Source: a virus. From it: DNA of 41,459 nucleotides. Shown here piece after piece: positions 4,517 to 37,166 of this stretch. How positions within the stretch are numbered: the stretch's first letter is position 1; every line of letters begins with the position of its first letter. The notes under the pieces are model-generated. The model saw only the letters and a program-made list of their open reading frames with translations. It was not told the DNA's origin and did no database searches. Where the stretch lies: the IMG/VR virus record IMGVR_UViG_3300008448_000204, positions 1 through 41,459 of that record, one strand, 5' to 3'. The position numbers and the translations under genes were made by a program.

Positions 4517-5506
4517 ATGAAAAAACAAATCACAATTGGTCTTCTTCTATTATCAAGCATTAGTTTGTTTGGTTCTTACAACAAGGCCACAACAGTTGCA
4601 AATGGCAGTATTACAACTACAACAAATTGGTCTTATCTACCTACAAGTCCAGCAGATCCAACTAACAAAGATACATTGTTCATTGAACATGACATGTATT
4701 GGGATGCTACTATAGACTGGTCAGCTTCTTCAATTAAAGTTGTTATCATCAGAAATGGTGGTTCTTTAGGTCCTAAAGGAAACAACAATGTATTTACTTT
4801 ACCTTCTACCACTCAAATTTATATTGATGCTTTGAGTTATATAGGAGATAAATCAGGAAATAACTCTAACCATAAACTTATTTTAGGTACAGTATGTGTT
4901 TGGGGAAAAGGGTGTGGATGTAGTGGAGGTAATGCTTCAATAAATGGTCCTATAAACTTGAATGCTTCTAATCCTTGTGGTTTTATAGTTTTACCTGTAA
5001 ACGTTACCTCTATTTATACAAAAAATACAGGTTCTTCTATTGAATTGAACTGGTCTGTGTCTGAAGAACAGAATATTGCTTACTATCTTATTGAAAAGTC
5101 TAACAATGGTATTAATTTTGAAACTATAGGAACAGTTACAGCTTCTGGTGGGTTGGAATCTAAAACTTATAGTTTTGAAGATCGTAGTTCAAATAATCCA
5201 CTAGTATATTACAAATTGGTTGCTGTTTCCTCTAACGGTGAGGCCTCATATTCAAGTATACTACCTGTTCATTCTAAAATAAATGTTGGTATATCTCAAA
5301 ATAATGGTGAAATCACTATCAACCCAGAAAATATTGAAGGTGACTTTGAATATGAAATTTTAGACCTACAAGGAAAAACCATTATATCAGGTACTACAAA
5401 TAATATTACTCCAGTAAATGTGTCTAACATTAATAAAGGAGGAATTTATGTATTGAGATTGTCTATATTGGGACAAACAATCAATTGTGAAAAAATCCTT
5501 ATTTAA
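4517..5506 (+). CDS. Secreted protein with T9SS-like C-terminal sorting domain
   Basis: The 329-residue protein has an N-terminal signal peptide (KKQITIGLLLLSSISLFG, about 2-19). A beta-rich region follows with a Cys/Gly cluster (GKGCGCSGG, about 134-142), then a fibronectin-III-like domain (about 165-250: LNWSVSEEQNIAYYLIEKS and YYKLVAVSSNG). The last ~75 residues (EYEILDLQGKTI, then INKGGIYVLRL, ending KILI) match the pattern of type A T9SS sorting domains (TIGR04183 style). This domain directs export across the outer membrane of Bacteroidetes. The protein is therefore predicted to be secreted or surface-attached by the host's own machinery. The molecular target is unknown. Confidence 0.8.
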   Translation: MKKQITIGLLLLSSISLFGSYNKATTVANGSITTTTNWSYLPTSPADPTNKDTLFIEHDMYWDATIDWSASSIKVVIIRNGGSLGPKGNNNVFTLPSTTQIYIDALSYIGDKSGNNSNHKLILGTVCVWGKGCGCSGGNASINGPINLNASNPCGFIVLPVNVTSIYTKNTGSSIELNWSVSEEQNIAYYLIEKSNNGINFETIGTVTASGGLESKTYSFEDRSSNNPLVYYKLVAVSSNGEASYSSILPVHSKINVGISQNNGEITINPENIEGDFEYEILDLQGKTIISGTTNNITPVNVSNINKGGIYVLRLSILGQTINCEKILI

Positions 5507-6231: not shown

Positions 6232-7398
6232 ATGGAAAATCAAAACAGTGTTTGCTTTGTAGCAAAAATTAGTGAAATTAAACCTATTGAAGGTGCTGAT
6301 AACATTGAATTGGGTGTTATTGGTGGATGGAATTGTATTATTAAAAAAGGTGAGTATAAAGTAGATGATTTAGTTGTAGTAGCAACTACAGACGCAGTTA
6401 TACCTCAAGAATTATCAGACGCAATGAACGTAACTAATTACTTACGTAAAGGTGGACGTGTGCGTACTGTTAAGTTGAGAGGTGTTTATAGTGAATGTTT
6501 GATTATACCAACCCAAGTTGCTAGACAGTGGGCTGCAAGTAACCCTAAAGGAAAACATACTGAGGTTAGACAATTGGATAGACCTACAGAAGGTCAAGAC
6601 TTAATGGAAATATTAAGTATCTTCAAATACGAACCACCAGCAGTTCAAGTACAACTTACTTCAGGTCGTAAAATTAGATACAGTCAGAATCCAAACTTTG
6701 GTATTTACTATAAATTCCCTAACATTAAAAACGTTAAAGGAATGTTTAACGAAGAAGATGAAGTTATAGTAACTCGTAAAATTCACGGTACTAATGCTCG
6801 TTACGGTATTGTTAAAAAACGTAAACTATCTATTTGGGATAAAGTAAAACGTTTCTTCGGAGACAAATGGGTTGAATACGAATATGTTTACGGTTCTCAT
6901 AACGTAGAAAAAGGTTCTGACTCCCAAGGTTTCTATGATACTGATGTTTGGAGAACAATTGCCAAAAAATACAATATTAGAGAAAATCTTTGGGAACTCT
7001 TTAAAACATATAAAAATCATTATGAAATTGAAGAAGGTATTGTAATCTATGGAGAAATTTATGGTCCTGGTATTCAAAAGAACTATGATTATGGATTGAA
7101 AGAAATCGAATATGCTGGTTTTGATACTACTATTAATAGTCAATACTGTGATATAGGTAGAAGTTACGATATTCAATGTAATGTTTTAGGATTACCTTAT
7201 GTACCTGTTCTGGCTAACGAAATGTGGTCTCAAGAATTGCAAGATAGGTATTTATTTGATAAAATCAAAGATACTAAAGTACCACACGAAGGTGTTGTTA
7301 TTAGCAGAGTTGATGGAGACAGACATAAAGTAGCTAAAGTTATTAACCCAGACTATTTGATTTACGGAGAAAAACATAATGTAGGAGACTCACACTAA
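6232..7398 (+). CDS. ATP-dependent RNA ligase, Rnl5/DraRnl-like
   Basis: The 388-residue protein has the nucleotidyltransferase motifs of RNA ligases. Motif I is KIHGTN with the adenylated lysine at about 183, a YGEIYG segment (about 283) corresponds to motif IIIa, EGVVI (about 354) is motif IV, and KVIN (about 368) is motif V. The ~150 residues before motif I (EIKPIEGADNIELGVIGGW and onward) look like the N-terminal OB-type domain of Deinococcus-type Rnl5 ligases rather than the Rnl1 or Rnl2 layout. The enzyme seals 3'-OH/5'-phosphate RNA ends using ATP. Together with the kinase at 3838 it could repair tRNAs cleaved by host anticodon nucleases; the large tRNA array gives that idea weight. 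Start chosen from the promoter geometry. Confidence 0.88.
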   Translation: MENQNSVCFVAKISEIKPIEGADNIELGVIGGWNCIIKKGEYKVDDLVVVATTDAVIPQELSDAMNVTNYLRKGGRVRTVKLRGVYSECLIIPTQVARQWAASNPKGKHTEVRQLDRPTEGQDLMEILSIFKYEPPAVQVQLTSGRKIRYSQNPNFGIYYKFPNIKNVKGMFNEEDEVIVTRKIHGTNARYGIVKKRKLSIWDKVKRFFGDKWVEYEYVYGSHNVEKGSDSQGFYDTDVWRTIAKKYNIRENLWELFKTYKNHYEIEEGIVIYGEIYGPGIQKNYDYGLKEIEYAGFDTTINSQYCDIGRSYDIQCNVLGLPYVPVLANEMWSQELQDRYLFDKIKDTKVPHEGVVISRVDGDRHKVAKVINPDYLIYGEKHNVGDSH

Positions 7399-9483: not shown

Positions 9484-10380
9484 ATGAAACTGTATAACAT
9501 ATCAGGAGGAGCCACTAAAATTGGTGGGTTATTTGCTAAGTCTGAAAGAATTATTAAAGAGTTTGGTTATAAACCTGATGTTATATCTGGTGTATCGTCT
9601 GGTGCTCTTTTGGCTTTACCCATTGCTTTAGGTAAATGGGATGAACTAAAACAATTGACTTCAGATTTTGATTTAGATACTATATTTGATAATAAACCTT
9701 TTAATGAAAAAGGTAAAATAACAGCAAAAGCTATCTGGAGAGTTATAACAGGTAAACCCTCATTTGGTACTCAGAAAAACCTAGAAAAAGCTTTATCTAA
9801 ACTTATTACTGAAGAAATCTTTCAGGATTATATATTGAAAGCATCTAAAAAAGAATTACCTAAAGTATTTGTTGGAGTTACAAACTTTAATACAGGTAAA
9901 TTCGAACTAATAGACATTACAAAAGTATCTTATAGTAACTATATAAAGTATGTTATAGCCTCTACTTCAATACCTTTAGCTGTTGAAGCAGTTAAAATAA
10001 AAAATAACTATTACTATGATGGTGGAGTATTACACCACACCTGTACTAATTCACTTATTAATAAGTATGGTAGTAAAGTAAGTCACTGTATTACAGTATT
10101 TTCTAGACCTGAAGAACCTGATTTGGCTTATGAAAACTTTAACCAAATAGATATATCTCAGGTATTTAAAGCAACACAGGACCTACAAATAGCTAATATC
10201 AGTATAAGTGACCAACGTATTGAAAAATTACTATGTGAACAGTATAATATAGTAAATAAACAAGTATTTTGCCCTAAAGTACTAACCTCTATGTACGATG
10301 TAGATAAGGTAAGATTACAAAAACTATACTATAAGAGTTATATGACTGAAAACTATATAAACTATATAGACTTTATATAA
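9484..10380 (+). CDS. Patatin-like phospholipase
   Basis: The 298-residue protein has the patatin fold signatures: an N-terminal glycine-rich oxyanion segment (SGGATKIGG, 7-15), the nucleophile elbow GVSSG with Ser38 (36-40), and the catalytic aspartate in DGG (about 179-181). Enzymes of this family hydrolyse acyl chains from phospholipids or other lipids with a Ser-Asp dyad. No signal peptide is visible, so it should act in the cytoplasm or on the inner leaflet. It lies 17 bp after mgsA and an AATATTTATTA sequence just upstream (about 9469-9479) resembles a late promoter, so it may also be expressed late. A role in lysis or membrane remodelling is possible but not shown. Confidence 0.87.
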   Translation: MKLYNISGGATKIGGLFAKSERIIKEFGYKPDVISGVSSGALLALPIALGKWDELKQLTSDFDLDTIFDNKPFNEKGKITAKAIWRVITGKPSFGTQKNLEKALSKLITEEIFQDYILKASKKELPKVFVGVTNFNTGKFELIDITKVSYSNYIKYVIASTSIPLAVEAVKIKNNYYYDGGVLHHTCTNSLINKYGSKVSHCITVFSRPEEPDLAYENFNQIDISQVFKATQDLQIANISISDQRIEKLLCEQYNIVNKQVFCPKVLTSMYDVDKVRLQKLYYKSYMTENYINYIDFI

Positions 10381-10466: not shown

Positions 10467-11267
10467 ATGTTAAACATTCAAAACAACGATTTCCTAACCA
10501 AAAGTTCAATCAGAAACATTGCTAGTTCAATTTTTACTGAAACTGGTTCTCCAAATGTAAGTGATAAATATGCTCACATTTCAACTGAAAAGATCATTGA
10601 TGATATGGCTTTGCTAGGTTGGGGAGTAGTAGATGCTAAAGAAGTTAAAGCACGTAAAGGTGCTGGTTTCCAAAAGCACCTAGTTGTGTTCCGTAATAAC
10701 GATATTCAAATCACTGCCGAAGACGGTGATAACGTTTATCCACAAATTCTATTGACTAACAGTCATGATGGTAAAAATGCATTTACTTTCACTGCTGGTT
10801 TGTTCCGTATGGTTTGTGAAAATGGTTTGGTTGTATCTTCCCGTGAGTTTGAAAATATGAAGATCCGTCACTATGGTTATTCATTTGAAGAACTCCAAAA
10901 CACTATTAAGTCAATTGTTGAAAAATTGCCTTTGACAGTTGAATCACTTAATAAGTTTCGTTCTGTAGAATTAGGTCAAGAACAAGCCTTGGATTTTGCT
11001 AAAAAAGCACTTGAGGTTCGTTTTGGTGATGATGTAGAAAATATCAAAGTTGATTTGAATGAACTACTTACCGCTACTCGTTTGGAAGATAAAGGTTCTG
11101 ATTTGTGGAGTGTGTACAATGTAGTTCAGGAAAAATTGACACATGGTATGTTCAGTTATTCTTACGGTACTAAAACACGTAAGGCTCGTAAAATTAAAAA
11201 CTTCCAACAAGATTTGGTTTTGAACGAGAAATTGTATGATTTGGCGCTTGAGTACGTTCCTTCATAA
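10467..11267 (+). CDS. DUF932 family phage/plasmid protein
   Basis: The protein has 266 residues. The central region LLTNSHDGKNAFTFTAGLF (about 93-111) followed by RMVCENGLVVS (112-122) is the hallmark of DUF932, a family found in phages and plasmids and often encoded near DNA metabolism genes. Its function is unknown. Codon use here is somewhat less AT-biased than in neighbours (frequent CGT, GGT, TTC), which may mean high expression. The last codons form the left arm of the terminator at 11251-11280. Confidence 0.85.
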   Translation: MLNIQNNDFLTKSSIRNIASSIFTETGSPNVSDKYAHISTEKIIDDMALLGWGVVDAKEVKARKGAGFQKHLVVFRNNDIQITAEDGDNVYPQILLTNSHDGKNAFTFTAGLFRMVCENGLVVSSREFENMKIRHYGYSFEELQNTIKSIVEKLPLTVESLNKFRSVELGQEQALDFAKKALEVRFGDDVENIKVDLNELLTATRLEDKGSDLWSVYNVVQEKLTHGMFSYSYGTKTRKARKIKNFQQDLVLNEKLYDLALEYVPS

Positions 11268-11280
11268 AGGAATGTACTTT
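11251..11280 (+). terminator. Terminator after the DUF932 gene
   Basis: A 12-bp stem (AGTACGTTCCTT at 11251-11262, AAGGAATGTACT at 11267-11278, loop CATA, one G-T pair) ends in TTT. The left arm overlaps the final codons of the gene. The T-tract is short. Confidence 0.7.
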
Positions 11281-11283
11281 AGC

Positions 11284-11314
11284 TTGGAATTTTAAAAAAA
11301 AGTTCATATATTTA
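11284..11314 (+). promoter_or_regulatory. Promoter of tRNA-Leu
   Basis: TTGG (11284-11287), 19 nt, TATATTTA (11307-11314), 40 nt upstream of tRNA-Leu(TAA). It is the first promoter of the RNA region. Confidence 0.77.
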
Positions 11315-11354
11315 TGTCATAAGCGAGTTGGGATTCATGGTTGTAATCCAATAT

Positions 11355-11440
11355 GCTGTTGTGGTGGAATAGGTAGACACGCAAGACTTAAAATCTTGTG
11401 ACCATAAAAGGTCGTGCCGGTTCGATCCCGGCCAGCAGTA
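11355..11440 (+). tRNA. tRNA-Leu(TAA)
   Basis: Class II cloverleaf: acceptor GCTGTTG/CAGCAGT, Leu-type D arm (GGTGGAATAGGTAGACAC), anticodon loop CTTAAAA, a long variable arm and T arm GCCGGTTCGATCCCGGC. Discriminator A. CCA is not encoded. Confidence 0.92.
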
Positions 11441-11472
11441 CAAAAAGAAGAAACAAATTTTTTCACTTAAAT

Positions 11473-11503
11473 TTGGTTTTTTCAAAAATTTTTGTTATAT
11501 TTA
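11473..11503 (+). promoter_or_regulatory. Promoter of the giant ncRNA
   Basis: TTGG (11473-11476), 19 nt, TATATTTA (11496-11503). Predicted transcription start is about 11508, just before the 5' arm of the ncRNA closing stem at 11519. Confidence 0.8.
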
Positions 11504-11518
11504 TGATATAATAAAAAA

Positions 11519-12362
11519 ACGTTCTTAAAATTATTAGATATCCATTTCAACGTAAGTTGAATAAAAAGATATCGGCAGCCTATGGTCGTTAAATAAACCA
11601 CGAAAGTGGGATAAAGTGAATTGTACAGACAAAGACAATTTGCGGTTTCGAAAGAAACTCGAGTAGGCAAGCGAGATATCATTTAATCTGAAGTAGTGAG
11701 GGCAACGCCGTAATGAAATGATTAGATGACTTAGCGATGTGGGTCGTTAGGTTGAGTTCGGAAGAACAATAAGAATAACTCGTAGAAACAATGCAAAAAA
11801 TACTTCCATCCAGTTGTACTATTGCGTTTTTCAATATCAGAGGATACTTAAAGCCGAAAGGCATGTAGGTGTACAGGTGGTGCTGTTATTTACCTTGTTT
11901 GGGTTCTACCAAGAACCATAACATGAAGTAGTCTTAAAATATGGAGGTAGGGATATCTCAGAGAGTAGTTTAGTATTTTCTCGCTCAAAAGGTGGGGAAG
12001 CTAAAAGGTAAGCCACTACTTTCAATCATCCACGTCAAAAAAACTTTGCAATTAGGAATGCAAAATTCAAAAATTCAAAGCAAGAGTGCTTACCAGTCAC
12101 GGACGAAAGATGCCTACATAGTAATGAGTTGTTCATTGCCACTAGAGGTCGCAAGCCAATAGTGATTTGTTTGAAAGGTCTATAGCACCGCAAGTGCTAA
12201 TCAGCTCGGCAGAGTTGAGTAGAATAAGTAAAACGAGAGTAGTCCAAACATGTGACTTAAAGAGTGGTTCACTTAAAAAACCGGCATTGTTAGAATACAA
12301 GTCAAAAGCTTGTGGATAAGAAGGGAAACAATAATCCAACAAAAGATCTAACACATAAACGT
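11519..12362 (+). ncRNA. Giant structured ncRNA, GOLLD/ROOL-like
   Basis: This ~844-nt stretch has no plausible coding frame and is richer in G and C than the flanking genes. It is dense in short hairpins. Outer ends pair: ACGTT (11519-11523) with AACGT (12358-12362), and TTAGAT (11534-11539) with ATCTAA (12346-12351). Internal hairpins include TTCAAC-GTAA-GTTGAA (11546-11561), CCAC-GAAA-GTGG, GTTTC-GAAA-GAAAC, GTTC-GGAA-GAAC, GCC-GAAA-GGC, GGTTCT-ACCA-AGAACC, AGCAC-CGCAA-GTGCT and ACAAG..CTTGT, plus a longer ATCATTT..AAATGAT pairing. Several end in GNRA tetraloops, the usual docking loops of large folded RNAs. It has its own promoter and lies between phage tRNA genes. Length, ornate structure and tRNA-cluster context match GOLLD RNA (about 800 nt); ROOL (about 580 nt) is the alternative. 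Family membership is inference, the structure is seen. Confidence 0.72.
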
Positions 12363-12365
12363 ATA

Positions 12366-12389
12366 ATCTCAGCGTTTTAAAGCCGAGAT
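12366..12389 (+). other. Hairpin overlapping the 5' end of tRNA-Thr
   Basis: ATCTC (12366-12370) and GC (12372-12373) can pair with GC (12382-12383) and GAGAT (12385-12389), the first bases of tRNA-Thr. It may be an alternative fold in the junction between ncRNA and tRNA, or a processing signal. Confidence 0.45.
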
Positions 12390-12464
12390 CGCATAGCGGT
12401 CGATTGCACCTGACTTGTAATCAGGTTCCTCACGGACACGTCAGTTCGAATCTGACTCTCGGCT
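12382..12464 (+). tRNA. tRNA-Thr(TGT) with class II-like body
   Basis: Acceptor GCCGAGA/TCTCGGC, anticodon stem CCTGA/TCAGG with loop CTTGTAA (TGT), T arm GTCAG/CTGAC, discriminator T. The D arm (TCGCATAGCGG..TTGCA) is nearly that of the tRNA-Tyr at 13125. The variable region is ~14 nt (TTCCTCACGGACAC), as in class II tRNAs, which is abnormal for threonine. G1-C72, C2-G71 and G35-U36 fit threonyl identity. Confidence 0.82.
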
Positions 12465-12471
12465 CAAATAA

Positions 12472-12544
12472 GCAGGTGTCGTATAATGGCTCATTACACT
12501 AGCCTTCCAAGCCTGTGATGACAGTTCGATTCTGTCCACCTGCT
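12472..12544 (+). tRNA. tRNA-Gly(TCC)
   Basis: Acceptor GCAGGTG/CACCTGC, loop CTTCCAA, T arm GACAG/CTGTC, discriminator T. The anticodon stem CTAGC/GCCTG has two non-pairs (T-T, A-C), so it may be weakly structured. Confidence 0.85.
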
Positions 12545-12566
12545 CCAAAAAAAGAAAAGAAAAAAT

Positions 12567-12597
12567 TTGGAATTTTCGAATTCCTTTCATATATTTA
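12567..12597 (+). promoter_or_regulatory. Promoter upstream of a small ORF and tRNAs
   Basis: TTGG (12567-12570), 19 nt, TATATTTA (12590-12597), followed by TAACAAACAAAAAC. Confidence 0.75.
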
Positions 12598-12619
12598 TAA
12601 CAAACAAAAACAACAAAAA

Positions 12620-12715
12620 ATGAAACATTGTCAATCGTATCAGTTTAGTCTTAAAGCATCTTGGATGAATCGTCCGGAGGTGAAAGATATTAGACTGAAA
12701 GGGCTTACAATGTGA
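12620..12715 (+). CDS. Possible 31-residue small ORF
   Basis: An ATG about 18 nt after the predicted transcription start opens a 31-codon frame (begins MKHCQSYQFSLKASW, ends LKGLTM) between tRNA-Gly and a terminator. Position behind a good promoter is the only support. No family recognised. It could also be an untranslated leader of a short RNA. Confidence 0.35.
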   Translation: MKHCQSYQFSLKASWMNRPEVKDIRLKGLTM

Positions 12716-12752
12716 TATTTGTTTAAAAAAACATATTAAAACATAAAGTAAG

Positions 12753-12777
12753 CCCAATCCAAAAGATTGGGTTTTTT
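12753..12777 (+). terminator. Rho-independent terminator
   Basis: Perfect 7-bp stem CCCAATC (12753-12759) / GATTGGG (12765-12771), loop CAAAA, then six T. It has the same loop and form as the terminator ending the tRNA array at 16374. Confidence 0.88.
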
Positions 12778-12790
12778 GTTCTTTGACATA
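12778..12790 (+). repeat. tRNA leader box, copy 1
   Basis: The 13-mer GTTCTTTGACATA recurs exactly at 14288-14300. Both copies are followed by a short A-rich segment containing AGAAA and lie 13-14 nt before a tRNA 5' end (Phe here, Leu there). Confidence 0.6.
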
Positions 12791-12803
12791 TTAGAAAGTA
12801 AAT

Positions 12804-13413: not shown

Positions 13414-13497
13414 GGAGAGTAAAACAGTAAGGTTGCTGTCACCGCCTGCTAAGCGAGTGGTACTTTCGAGTATGAATTTCGATTATTCTACTCTCCG
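13414..13497 (+). tRNA. tRNA-Ser(GCT)
   Basis: Class II: acceptor GGAGAGT/ACTCTCC, discriminator G as expected for serine, anticodon loop CTGCTAA, long variable arm. The anticodon stem (CACCGC/GCGAGTG) seems to contain a bulge and the T arm (GAAT/ATTC) is weak. Confidence 0.83.
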
Positions 13498-13528
13498 CTA
13501 TGTAAAACTATTTATAAAAAAACAGATT

Positions 13529-13981
13529 ATGAACTTCAAAACACTAACAAACAAAAAAACAGTTGACTTAGTTGACTATGTAAAAACGTATCTAATTGCA
13601 AACCCCGATACAGAATTATTAATTGGGTGTGACTCGCAAAACCACGCGTATAATACAACATATGCAACTGTAGTTGCACTTTATAAACCTAATGGCGGTG
13701 CACACGTATTGTTTAATAAAGAGGTTTTACCTGTTGAAAAAGTAAGACAAGTACGTTTAATGAATGAGGTTTGGAAATCTGTTGAAGTAGCAGAATTACT
13801 TAAAAACGCAGGTTTACCCCAAGTTAAGTACATTGACATAGATGTTAACCCTGATAAGAGATATAAATCAAATGAGGTATTAAGAGCAGCAGTTGGTTTA
13901 GTTGAAGGTATGGGATATAAGGTTAGGTACAAATCAATGGGCGTTATGGTAACATATGCTGCTGATATGTTAGTAAAATAA
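13529..13981 (+). CDS. RNase H-like nuclease, YkuK (DUF458) family
   Basis: I start this 150-residue protein at the ATG at 13529. An upstream in-frame ATG at 13433 lies inside tRNA-Ser. The segment LLIGCDSQNH (about 30-39) followed by YATVVALY (about 44-51) and the later IDIDVNPD (about 108-115) fits the YkuK/DUF458 family, which has a predicted RNase H-like fold with conserved aspartates. No activity is established for the family to my knowledge. It is the only clear protein gene inside the tRNA array, so tRNA processing, quality control or degradation is a reasonable but untested idea. A CTATTTATAA sequence ~15 bp upstream resembles the late promoter. Confidence 0.78.
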   Translation: MNFKTLTNKKTVDLVDYVKTYLIANPDTELLIGCDSQNHAYNTTYATVVALYKPNGGAHVLFNKEVLPVEKVRQVRLMNEVWKSVEVAELLKNAGLPQVKYIDIDVNPDKRYKSNEVLRAAVGLVEGMGYKVRYKSMGVMVTYAADMLVK

Positions 13982-14287: not shown

Positions 14288-14300
14288 GTTCTTTGACATA
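14288..14300 (+). repeat. tRNA leader box, copy 2
   Basis: This copy of GTTCTTTGACATA is identical to 12778-12790 and lies 13 nt before the next tRNA. Such a box could act in antitermination or processing. Confidence 0.6.
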
Positions 14301-14402: not shown

Positions 14403-14508
14403 AGTCAGGTGGCGTAATGGTAACGTGGCACCTCCCCAAGGTTGAGATTAACAGCTAATGGCACTCTTTATGGCAAAGCAGTCACAGGTTCGAGTCCTGT
14501 CCTGACTA
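14403..14508 (+). tRNA. Irregular tRNA-like element A
   Basis: Ends pair perfectly (AGTCAGG/CCTGACT, then A). D arm (GGCGTAATGGTAACGT) and T arm (ACAGG-TTCGAGT-CCTGT) are good. The anticodon arm around ACCTCCCCAAGGT does not give a normal 5+7 stem-loop, and ~40 nt of extra sequence precede the T arm. If functional the anticodon might be CCC (Gly). It could be a pseudogene. Confidence 0.5.
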
Positions 14509-14587: not shown

Positions 14588-14680
14588 GGTCAGGTGGCGG
14601 AATGGTAGACGCTTTTGGATTCTCTGTCCGATACCTTTGTTAAGGCAAAAAGCTTACAGGTTCGATTCCTGTCCTGACTA
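14588..14680 (+). tRNA. Irregular tRNA-like element B
   Basis: Acceptor GGTCAGG/CCTGACT, Leu-like D arm (GGCGGAATGGTAGACGC), stem TTGGA/TCCGA with 7-nt loop TTCTCTG (formal anticodon CTC), a long variable arm with CCTT-TGTT-AAGG, T arm ACAGG/CCTGT. A class II body with a glutamate anticodon is not expected. Confidence 0.5.
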
Positions 14681-14690
14681 CGAAGCCTGT

Positions 14691-19163: not shown

Positions 19164-19873
19164 TGGAAGAAACGGTAGTGAAAAAGAAGAAAAAGAATGT
19201 ACAGTATTTTACTCAAGATACTGAAGATTCTATTGTGTTGTATAATAATACCACCAACTCAGAACTAAAAAGTAGAATTTATAATGATAAAATCCATTAT
19301 GCTTTCTTTAAGTTAACCGAAAATATCATCCATACATTTAAATTTTATTACACCGAAGTAAAAAATATTGAAGATTTACAACATGAAGTAATTACTTTTT
19401 TATTATCCAAAATTCATCTTTATGACCAAACAAAAGGTACTAAAGCATATTCTTATTTTGGAACTATTGCTAAACGTTACTTGATATTATCAAACCAAAA
19501 AAATTATAAAAAACGTGTCGATAATGTTACCATAGAATCAATTGAGGAAGATGAAAAACATTCATATGACATGGAAGACTCACCGTATAATGAGCGTTTA
19601 TCTATGTTTATAGACGATTATGTTGAGTATTGCACGGATAATATATTCGAATTATTCCCTAAAGAATACGACGCTCAAATAGCAGATGCCATTCTAGAAT
19701 TGTTTCGTAAAAGAGAAAATTTAGATATTTTTAATAAAAAAGCTCTTTACATTTACATACGTGAACAAATTGATGTTAAAACTCCTAAAATTACAAAAAT
19801 AGCTAATCAGTTATACGATATATTTAAAAAAGGCTATCTATTTTATTTAGAACATGGTTATGCAAAGTTTTAG
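19163..19873 (+). CDS. gp55-like late transcription sigma factor
   Basis: The 236-residue protein looks like a minimal sigma-70 relative. Residues about 38-125 fit region 2: NIEDLQHEVITFLLSKIHLY (core binding) followed by DQTKGTKAYSYFGTIAKRYL (promoter recognition), as in DLxQEGxxGL...FDxxKGxxFSTYAxxxI of sigma factors. No region 4 helix-turn-helix is evident, as in T4 gp55, which drives late genes with a -10 element only. T4 gp55 is 185 residues, so this one is longer. The late sites found here lack a -33 box, consistent with that role. Its position directly before the structural genes supports the call. Confidence 0.72.
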   Translation: MEETVVKKKKKNVQYFTQDTEDSIVLYNNTTNSELKSRIYNDKIHYAFFKLTENIIHTFKFYYTEVKNIEDLQHEVITFLLSKIHLYDQTKGTKAYSYFGTIAKRYLILSNQKNYKKRVDNVTIESIEEDEKHSYDMEDSPYNERLSMFIDDYVEYCTDNIFELFPKEYDAQIADAILELFRKRENLDIFNKKALYIYIREQIDVKTPKITKIANQLYDIFKKGYLFYLEHGYAKF

Positions 19874-19877
19874 TTTT

Positions 19878-19888
19878 AATATTTATAA
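19878..19888 (+). promoter_or_regulatory. Late promoter-like site for the baseplate operon
   Basis: AATATTTATAA (19878-19888), with a second TATATTTA at 19902-19909 overlapping the ATG at 19909. No TTGG is at -33 of either. Confidence 0.6.
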
Positions 19889-19908
19889 TAAACTAATATT
19901 GTATATTT

Positions 19909-20244
19909 ATGTCACAATTCAACAACATAATTTTTGGTAAAAAAAAGTTTTCTGATATTTTAGAGGAAATTTACAATAACCAAAAGAAAAAAGATCAACA
20001 GGTTACTGCCCTTATAAATGAATTAAAACCTCTTATTAATGAAATAGGGGATGCTACCTTAGTAGTTCCTTTAATTAAGGAATACATGGAAATAAGTGTT
20101 AAAAATGATGATATTTTAATTAAAATGGCTGCGTTAGCACAAAGAGCTATGCAAACACAAGCCGCTGATGGTTCACTTACTATTTCTGATGAAGAAAAAG
20201 AACAACTATTATCAGCTATGAATGATTTGAAAGGGAATAGTTAA
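19909..20244 (+). CDS. Hypothetical protein, first gene of tail operon
   Basis: The protein has 111 residues, is mainly helical and has an acidic C-terminus. The middle (LINEIGDATLVVPLIKEYME) is amphipathic. No family recognised. It begins the late operon after gp55 and overlaps the spike gene by one base (TAATG), so it is likely a virion or assembly protein. Confidence 0.6.
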   Translation: MSQFNNIIFGKKKFSDILEEIYNNQKKKDQQVTALINELKPLINEIGDATLVVPLIKEYMEISVKNDDILIKMAALAQRAMQTQAADGSLTISDEEKEQLLSAMNDLKGNS

Positions 20245-35445: not shown

Positions 35446-36387
35446 ATGCTCAATCAACAACTGATTGCTTTAGTAAATTCTGTATTGGGAGTAGGTAAAC
35501 CAACTTCAAGAGGCAATTATGCTTATGTATGTCCTTTCCACACATCCAACCCTCCAGGTAAAAAAAATCTGGAAGTTAATATGTCGGAAAATGAAAAAGG
35601 AGAACATAAATGGCATTGTTGGGGTTGTAACGCTAAGGGTAAAAAAATTCACCAAATATTCAAAAAATTAAATGTACATCCTGATAAAATTCTTGAATTA
35701 AGTAAAATAGAAAAATATTTTGATCCACATAATATACAACAATCCACAAATGAGAAAGTTGAACTTCCTAAAGAATTTAAATCATTAACTAATATTCAGA
35801 AATCAGATATTATAGGAAGACATGCTTTATCTTATGCTAAATCTAGAAACATTAGTGAAGAAGATATTTTAAAATACAATATTGGATATTGCGAATCAGG
35901 ACCTTACAAAAACACAATTATAATTCCCTCTTACAATGAAAATGGAGAATTAAATTATTTTACAGGTCGTTCATTTGAAAAAGAAACTCAAAGAAAATAC
36001 AAAAATCCAACAGTTTCTCGTAACATCATACCATTTGAAATATTTATAAATTGGGATTTGCCTATCATATTGTGTGAAGGACCGTTTGATGCCATTGCTA
36101 TTAAGAGAAATGTTATTCCATTATTAGGTAAAAACATACAATCAAATTTGATGAAAAAGATTGTAATGTCTAGTGTAGAAAAAATATATATAGCTTTAGA
36201 TAAAGATGCTCAAAAACAAGCTCTATCATTTTGTGAGCAATTAATGAATGAAGGTAAAGAAATTTATTTAGTAAATATGAAAGACAAAGACCCAAGTGAA
36301 ATGGGATTTGAACATTTTACTAAATTAATACAAGAAACAACTCCCCTAACATTTTCAGAATTGTTAGGAAAAAAGTTATCAATATGA
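35446..36387 (+). CDS. DNA primase (gp61-like, zinc finger plus TOPRIM)
   Basis: I choose ATG 35446, not 35440, because the earlier ATG lies in the -7 box. The 313-residue protein (T4 gp61 is 342) has an N-terminal zinc-binding site, CPFH (about 29-32) with CWGC (about 58-61), then a TOPRIM domain with ILCEGPFDAIAIKR (about 208-221) and IYIALDKDAQ (about 246-255). It synthesises RNA primers for lagging-strand synthesis, normally together with a gp41-type helicase, which is not in this window. It overlaps the nuclease gene by ATGA. Confidence 0.88.
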   Translation: MLNQQLIALVNSVLGVGKPTSRGNYAYVCPFHTSNPPGKKNLEVNMSENEKGEHKWHCWGCNAKGKKIHQIFKKLNVHPDKILELSKIEKYFDPHNIQQSTNEKVELPKEFKSLTNIQKSDIIGRHALSYAKSRNISEEDILKYNIGYCESGPYKNTIIIPSYNENGELNYFTGRSFEKETQRKYKNPTVSRNIIPFEIFINWDLPIILCEGPFDAIAIKRNVIPLLGKNIQSNLMKKIVMSSVEKIYIALDKDAQKQALSFCEQLMNEGKEIYLVNMKDKDPSEMGFEHFTKLIQETTPLTFSELLGKKLSI

Positions 36388-37166
36388 ATAAAAAAAGAAA
36401 CATCAAACATGTAAACAACAGAATATTAGAAATTTCTGAAGATCATAAACAAATTACATTACCTGATTCTCGTTATTATAGAAGAAATGGTGAATATTAT
36501 CCTTCTATAACTCACGTTTTAGGTTCTTACCCTAAAGGTAAACATTTTGAAGAATGGCTTAAAAATATGGGTCGTTCAGCTGACTATATTGTTCGTAAAG
36601 CAGCCGAAGATGGAACCAAAGTTCATGAAATGATTGAAGAATATTTAGAAGGTAAAGAAATGAGTTTTCTAAATGAATGGGGTAATCCCAAATACAATCC
36701 TGACATCTGGCAAATGTTTTTACGTTTTGTTGATTTCTGGGAAACACATAAACCTGAATTAATAGACCAAGAAATACATTTATTCTCAGATACACTTAAA
36801 GTAGCAGGTACAACAGATTTGGTTTGTAAAATTAATAACGAACTTTGGATTATTGATCATAAAACATCAAACCATATTCAAACAACTTATGAATTACAAG
36901 CAGCAGTTTATGCTCATTGTTATGAGGAATGTTTTGGTATTAAACCTGATCGTACTGGTATTTTATGGTTAAAGTCTACAAAACGTAAAGGTTCAAAAGA
37001 TAAAATGCAAGGTAAAGGATGGGAAATGATTTTGCCATCTCGTACACAAGAGGAAAACATTGAAATCTTTAAAACAGTAAAACGATTATTTGATTTAGAA
37101 AACCCTAATGAGGCTCCTGTATTTACAGAATTTAAAACTACAGTAAAAAGAAATTTGGAAATATAA
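36384..37166 (+). CDS. PD-(D/E)XK nuclease, Cas4/RecB-like
   Basis: The 260-residue protein has a conserved nuclease core: EDGTKVHEMIEEYLEG (about 73-88, GTxxH), then KVAGTTDLVCKI (about 139-150) and WIIDHKTS (about 156-163), which give the D...DxK catalytic arrangement, and ELQAAVYAHC (about 171-180). These are hallmarks of RecB/Cas4-family nucleases. No four-cysteine iron-sulfur cluster is visible. Coupling with the primase (ATGA overlap) suggests a role in replication, recombination or host DNA degradation. No CRISPR array is present in the window. Confidence 0.85.
   Translation: MNKKRNIKHVNNRILEISEDHKQITLPDSRYYRRNGEYYPSITHVLGSYPKGKHFEEWLKNMGRSADYIVRKAAEDGTKVHEMIEEYLEGKEMSFLNEWGNPKYNPDIWQMFLRFVDFWETHKPELIDQEIHLFSDTLKVAGTTDLVCKINNELWIIDHKTSNHIQTTYELQAAVYAHCYEECFGIKPDRTGILWLKSTKRKGSKDKMQGKGWEMILPSRTQEENIEIFKTVKRLFDLENPNEAPVFTEFKTTVKRNLEI

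Follow-up and report, generated by a model that had tools for sequence, protein, structure and literature searches.

A full-length GOLLD RNA gene with a boxA-like leader motif in the tRNA array of a Bacteroidota phage

The question raised by this locus is what fills the interval 11442-12381, which separates a tRNA-Leu (TAA) gene (11355-11441, plus strand; ARAGORN, Rfam 55.8 bits) from a tRNA-Thr (TGT) gene (12382-12465, plus strand) in the viral record IMGVR_UViG_3300008448_000204, whose 41,459 nt are referred to here as the window. A preliminary description, made from the letters of the DNA, had proposed a giant non-coding RNA without coding potential that was GOLLD/ROOL-like and located in a tRNA cluster. 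Using the Rfam covariance models, we detected GOLLD (RF02032) at 11961-12375 on the plus strand with 278.8 bits (E 1.1e-78), far above the curated cut-off of 150 bits and from end to end of the model (positions 1-416 of 416). The ROOL model produced no match at E≤5 within 11200-12800, and apart from GOLLD the only significant Rfam matches in the window were tRNAs. The proposed kinship with GOLLD was thereby established, whereas that with ROOL was not borne out. The region indeed lies inside an array of 24 tRNAs (ARAGORN). Because tRNA-Thr begins 7 nt past the end of the Rfam match, a 3′ limit at 12389, as first suggested, overlaps this gene by 8 nt and had to be withdrawn. RF02032 represents the conserved 3′ half of GOLLD only, and the RNA of the window probably spans about 11515-12380, or ~860 nt.

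No conserved reading frame was found in 11442-12381, where the longest ORFs measure 56 aa on the plus strand and 70 aa on the minus strand, and the ORF pattern of the GOLLD region differs from relative to relative. The RNA strand folded better than 20 of 20 shuffled sequences (z −5.7). For the 5′ domain (11577-11960, plus strand; limits approximate), which lies outside the Rfam model, the fold was obtained from an alignment of 34 homologous phage loci that are 59-86% identical to the window. It comprises 21 covarying helices with 104 pairs, 79 of which show at least one compensatory change, and 96.8% of the cells at these pairs were paired compared with 78% in shuffles, none of 500 shuffles being as high. 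When the partner was slid by 1-3 columns, pairing dropped to 35-43%; this control favors a structure derived from the same alignment, though not to the extent seen. For the many internal hairpins noticed at the outset, the 5′ half by itself thus already supplies 21 helices backed by covariation, and GNRA loops were present as GAAA loops, one of which is invariant in the 5′ domain across the 34-locus alignment.

The two halves are also linked. A hairpin loop of the 5′ domain, TGTGGG (11738-11743, plus strand), covaries with TCCACG (12029-12034, plus strand), the segment ahead of a variable linker. This pairing was first indicated by a mutual-information list, which also holds other long-range candidate contacts. 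It occurs in three forms (TGTGG/CCACG, TGTAG/CTACA, and TACCG/CGGTA), and 95.1% of cells were paired compared with 28-54% after sliding. By covariation, therefore, a loop-linker contact joins the 5′ and 3′ halves, either within one chain or between chains. Taken together, the full-length Rfam match, the strong compensatory change among homologous phage contigs, and the lack of conserved coding frames indicate that the region is a full-length conserved GOLLD gene, non-coding, in which selection maintains the fold of both domains. It is a new member of a known RNA family.

The ends of the RNA turned out differently from the complementary 5′ and 3′ termini that had been envisaged, since both 3′ segments pair locally. 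For TTAGAT/ATCTAA, only 42.9% of cells were paired over 34 homologues, no better than in shuffled and slid controls, and the candidate was rejected; ATCTAAC pairs instead with GTTAGA at 12290 (89.8%). The other 3′ segment belongs to a 3′-terminal hairpin, AACG-UAUAAUCUCAG-CGUU (12359-12375, plus strand), which is supported by the Rfam structure and by perfectly covarying pairs at 12359-12375, 12360-12374, and 12361-12373, while the 5′ ACGTT is part of a leader motif described below. We also asked whether GOLLD 3′ ends generally arise by RNase P release at the tRNA that follows. Among 45 non-redundant GOLLD loci, a tRNA lay within 15 nt in only 7 and within 60 nt in 11, so the rule was rejected and such release is a local feature at most.

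Comparison with the published structure of GOLLD env-38 (RF02032; 833 nt, 5′ region 1-420, 3′ region 421-833; PMC12286853) revealed the same architecture. Both RNAs share the full 3′ model, a similar length (~860 nt in the window), a conserved 3′ and a divergent 5′ domain in the same proportions, a linker in the same place, linker-flanking and terminal hairpins, and a setting in a phage tRNA array. The window RNA differs in belonging to a Bacteroidota-phage branch, in a 5′ domain of its own, whose fold we derived from homologues, and in a linker without a tRNA. Its A/T-rich variable linker, delimited by the Rfam and homologue alignments, occupies 12035-12080 (plus strand); in env-38 the linker (nt 497-538) is disordered within the published cage (PMC12286853). 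Two neighboring hairpins at 12184-12216 (plus strand), with loops CGCAA and CGGCA, can be read through the residue numbering of PMC12286853 as candidates for L21a and L21b, the symmetric kissing loops between half-shells. The L21a candidate has a self-complementary inner GC/CG, as CGCAA in the window and GTCGAA in another group. In the close relatives L064, L141, and L142, the two loop types (GCAA and GGCA) appear in reversed order, as if the loops were exchangeable.

Upstream of the RNA, we found a putative Bacteroidota-type promoter at 11475-11505 (plus strand), composed of TTTG (11475-11478) and TATATTTATG (11496-11505). The window has nine copies of its pattern, TATATTTATR, against 1.6 expected, and all of them are on the plus strand; none of 100 shuffles reached this count. 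One of the nine ends 15 nt ahead of the motif GTTCTTAAA at the 5′ end of the RNA. Aligned relatives carry TATATTTA or TAnnTTTG 20-38 nt upstream of the corresponding motif, and the promoter-like sequence travels with the GOLLD cassette. The earlier proposal that the RNA has its own promoter is therefore supported as a prediction.

The leader motif itself, GTTCTTAAA (11521-11529, plus strand), lies in the probable transcript leader and resembles boxA, being a one-base variant of GYTCTTTRA that was recognized by alignment with relatives, which carry GTTCTTTAA or GTTCTTTGA at this position. Since the copy in the window departs from the consensus at one base and is non-significant there by itself, the boxA claim for this phage rests on that alignment. 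In the discovery set, the pattern G[CT]TCTT[AT][AG]A was present in 34 of 35 leaders and 20 of 21 leader clusters, against a background chance of about 1.1-1.5% per leader (1.1% for the discovery pattern); the 34 include GTTCTTAAA variants such as the window's own, and the figure is descriptive, because the pattern was spotted by eye in the same loci and then loosened at one position for the window variant. A later scan gave a fairer test, as it applied the stricter GYTCTTTRA to loci found via the 3′ half of the RNA, independently of the leader, and 71 of 79 further loci contained the motif. When only leaders dissimilar to all earlier loci were counted, 8 of 10 had an exact GYTCTTTRA and the remaining two had GTTCTTTGT. 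No boxA-like match was found in the GOLLD of a 642 kb phage (L002) or in L336 and L337, two GOLLDs inside tRNA arrays.

The same motif was found upstream of tRNA blocks, where 14 of 22 distinct copies lay within 120 nt before a tRNA, compared with 11.7% of positions. In the window, GTTCTTTGAC occurs at 12778-12787 (plus strand), as part of the leader to the following tRNA block, 26 nt before tRNA-Phe, and again at 14288-14297 (plus strand), 25 nt before tRNA-Leu (TAG). Among Bacteroidota 16S leaders, G[AT]TC[AT]TTGA[AC] was present within 400 nt in 17 of 31, as GTTCTTTGA or GTTCATTGA, and the other 14 were without the searched motif; the rRNA leader of a gammaproteobacterial control (Providencia) showed CGCTCTTTAACA. 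The boxA consensus of rRNA leaders in E. coli and other Gammaproteobacteria is GYTCTTTAANA, published by authors who did not examine non-coding RNAs (PMC5725501), and GOLLD leaders have GYTCTTTRA, likewise often after a short hairpin. The motif differs from rRNA boxA in preceding a phage non-coding RNA and not an rRNA. Taken together, these findings make GYTCTTTRA in GOLLD leaders a probable boxA. We found no text linking GOLLD with boxA in the literature searched, outside the scope of which lay the original 2009 and the 2020 mycobacterial GOLLD papers; as far as that literature shows, the boxA-like leader is new with respect to published GOLLDs and a promising hint about their transcription, and in these data the first concrete and testable one for such RNAs.

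We put the probability of the whole reading, a ~860-nt GOLLD gene of a Bacteroidota phage with its own promoter, a boxA-like leader, and a cage-forming product, at roughly 80%. In the proposed pathway, transcription would start from the Bacteroidota-type promoter, and the boxA-like leader would recruit the host Nus antitermination complex as in rRNA leaders, two steps that the motif counts and alignments support well. Antitermination would then keep Rho from stopping the polymerase before the long untranslated RNA is complete, with folding during synthesis, and the 3′ end would be set by the terminal hairpin, by an RNase P cut at tRNA-Thr, or by both. By analogy with the cryo-EM structure of another GOLLD, kissing loops and A-minor contacts would hold the copies together in a self-assembled cage that consists of RNA only and encloses the variable linker. 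If the boxA is real, GOLLD would be made as a stable RNA, which would explain how a long untranslated RNA reaches the levels needed for cage assembly. A broader version of this idea, to which we lean with some confidence, is that GOLLD genes resemble miniature rRNA operons, in which a host-type promoter is followed, often after a short hairpin, by a boxA that loads the host antitermination complex, so that cage RNA and phage tRNAs would both be antiterminated and the Nus complex would aid folding.

As for what such a cage would do, the likeliest role we can name is that of a lytic-phase container linked to translation, with phage tRNAs or parts of ribosomes as its contents, although we hold it only tentatively and would not bet on it. 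It is favored by the many GOLLDs near tRNA genes, by tRNAs in some linkers, and by reported ribosome binding: GOLLD assembles into cages in vitro, rises during lysis, binds ribosomes in pull-downs, and has tRNAs in some linkers (PMC12286853), and we found a linker tRNA in three other loci (L145, L337, and L338). A tRNA-specific role is weakened by the finding that a tRNA lies within 600 nt in only 19 of the 45 non-redundant loci, a proximity that is common but no rule. The linker tRNA of L338 (G084:C1:66407-66833, minus strand, on an 87 kb contig) has the anticodon CTA and would read UAG.

Several other explanations were weighed against this reading. Length and tRNA neighborhood alone would suit ROOL as well, which is likewise a giant, cage-forming non-coding RNA of phages located near tRNAs; however, its sequence and structure are unrelated to those of the window RNA. 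With GOLLD at E 1e-78, no match to ROOL or another family, no conserved frame, and compensatory changes throughout, the notion of a different giant RNA, whether ROOL or an undescribed family, or of a protein-coding region is refuted and deserves practically no weight. That the window GOLLD might be a decaying relic without function gains something from its evolutionary dispensability, as most relatives with the same neighboring gene are without GOLLD here, and from a published note that one L. brevis prophage could do without GOLLD (PMC7567579). We nevertheless regard decay as very improbable: the full-length model match is well over the cut-off, the invariant positions of the 34-locus alignment are retained in the window, other contigs contain near-identical copies (98.9-99.0%), and covariation extends down to close relatives.

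Two further alternatives accept the GOLLD identity and concern parts of the reading. In one, GTTCTTTRA is a conserved element of the RNA's 5′ structure or of the promoter and not an antitermination site, as its presence at the RNA 5′ end in nearly all loci and the variant form in the window would allow. This is unlikely in our judgment, because the motif stands at anything from 37 to 130 nt from the structured core, and because, wherever a -7 element is recognized, the motif follows it by 20-38 nt and is thus transcribed; it also heads tRNA blocks without GOLLD and has a related counterpart in Bacteroidota rRNA leaders. Slightly more weight, although still well short of an even chance, goes to a GOLLD by descent that does not form the 14-mer cage and adopts another subunit number or a complex with protein. 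In the published cage (PMC12286853), the caps are built from the 5′ domain, a part that diverges among GOLLDs, and since it differs between GOLLD groups the stoichiometry may not be 14; on the other side, the loops read as half-shell kissing loops are kept, and the inner GC/CG switch of the published family is also present in our set.

We then considered the host and distribution. By protein, the nearest isolate is a Flavobacterium phage. A phage protein at 4517-5506 has a weak C-terminal T9SS sorting domain (PF18962, E 1e-4, under its cut-off), and many related GOLLD promoters match the Bacteroidota -7 element TAnnTTTG. These observations support the suggestion of a Bacteroidetes phage host, but the window is not the first such case. 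Similar DNA is present in two metagenomic phages, LR756502.1 and LR745206.1 (642 and 634 kb), both with full GOLLD matches, and phages above 634 kb have been predicted to infect Bacteroidetes in a paper whose text does not contain GOLLD (PMC7162821). After a DNA-pattern scan of IMG/VR, GOLLD was found in 43 of 50 contigs searched, and a second scan identified 93 loci with a GOLLD profile match; altogether, the same RNA is present in over 100 IMG/VR viral contigs. Among loci from sequenced bacterial genomes that were chosen by DNA pattern and scanned with the profile, the sole clear GOLLD was in a Mycobacterium sp., and 148 Mycobacterium genomes contained no other. GOLLD was not found in the 121 Bacilli genomes searched, in the plasmids searched, or in the cultured Flavobacterium phage immuto. 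The GOLLD of Mycobacterium sp. D16Q14 (L220/L337) lies in a tRNA array with tRNA-Gln in its linker and no adjacent boxA-like motif. The abundant ~800-nt non-coding RNA of Vibrio phage ICP1 (PMC7567579) is alike in length and phage location; it was rejected as a GOLLD, as it gave no Rfam GOLLD match and its intergenic stretch has no GYTCTTTRA. One contig, IMGVR_UViG_3300042869_000878 (G060), contains two GOLLDs 16 kb apart (19736-20149 and 36280-36673) with 90% identity over the aligned RNA.

Close relatives of the window illustrate how the gene moves. In one of them (L064), the site holds the same cassette preceded by the same promoter-like sequence; in three others (L063, L065, and L066), GOLLD is replaced by a stretch of about 200 nt that contains a small open frame. 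This comparison indicates that GOLLD and its upstream region behave as one unit in gain, loss, or exchange. The tRNA-Leu (TAA) gene at the upstream border of the cassette is also present in relatives without GOLLD, and among relatives of the upstream DUF932 gene 6 of 50 contigs contained GOLLD. For genetic and structural work, material is at hand in close relatives that either have or lack the cassette at one site and in the covarying inter-domain contact.

Other genes of this neighborhood were recorded as well. A patatin-like phospholipase (PF01734, E 2.2e-19) is encoded at 9484-10380, immediately upstream of the DUF932 gene, and an RNA ligase (phrog_968, E 4.6e-58) at 6232-7398, in the region of the 24-tRNA array, might repair cut tRNAs. 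An RNase H-like protein (PF04308, E 4.8e-18) lies within the array at 13433-13981. Long variable arms are typical of Leu, Ser, and Tyr tRNAs. Two tRNA-like genes, at 14403-14508 and 14588-14681, share nearly identical ends, and both have long variable arms; the former was missed by ARAGORN and detected by Rfam, and the latter was called tRNA-Glu(CTC) despite its long arm.
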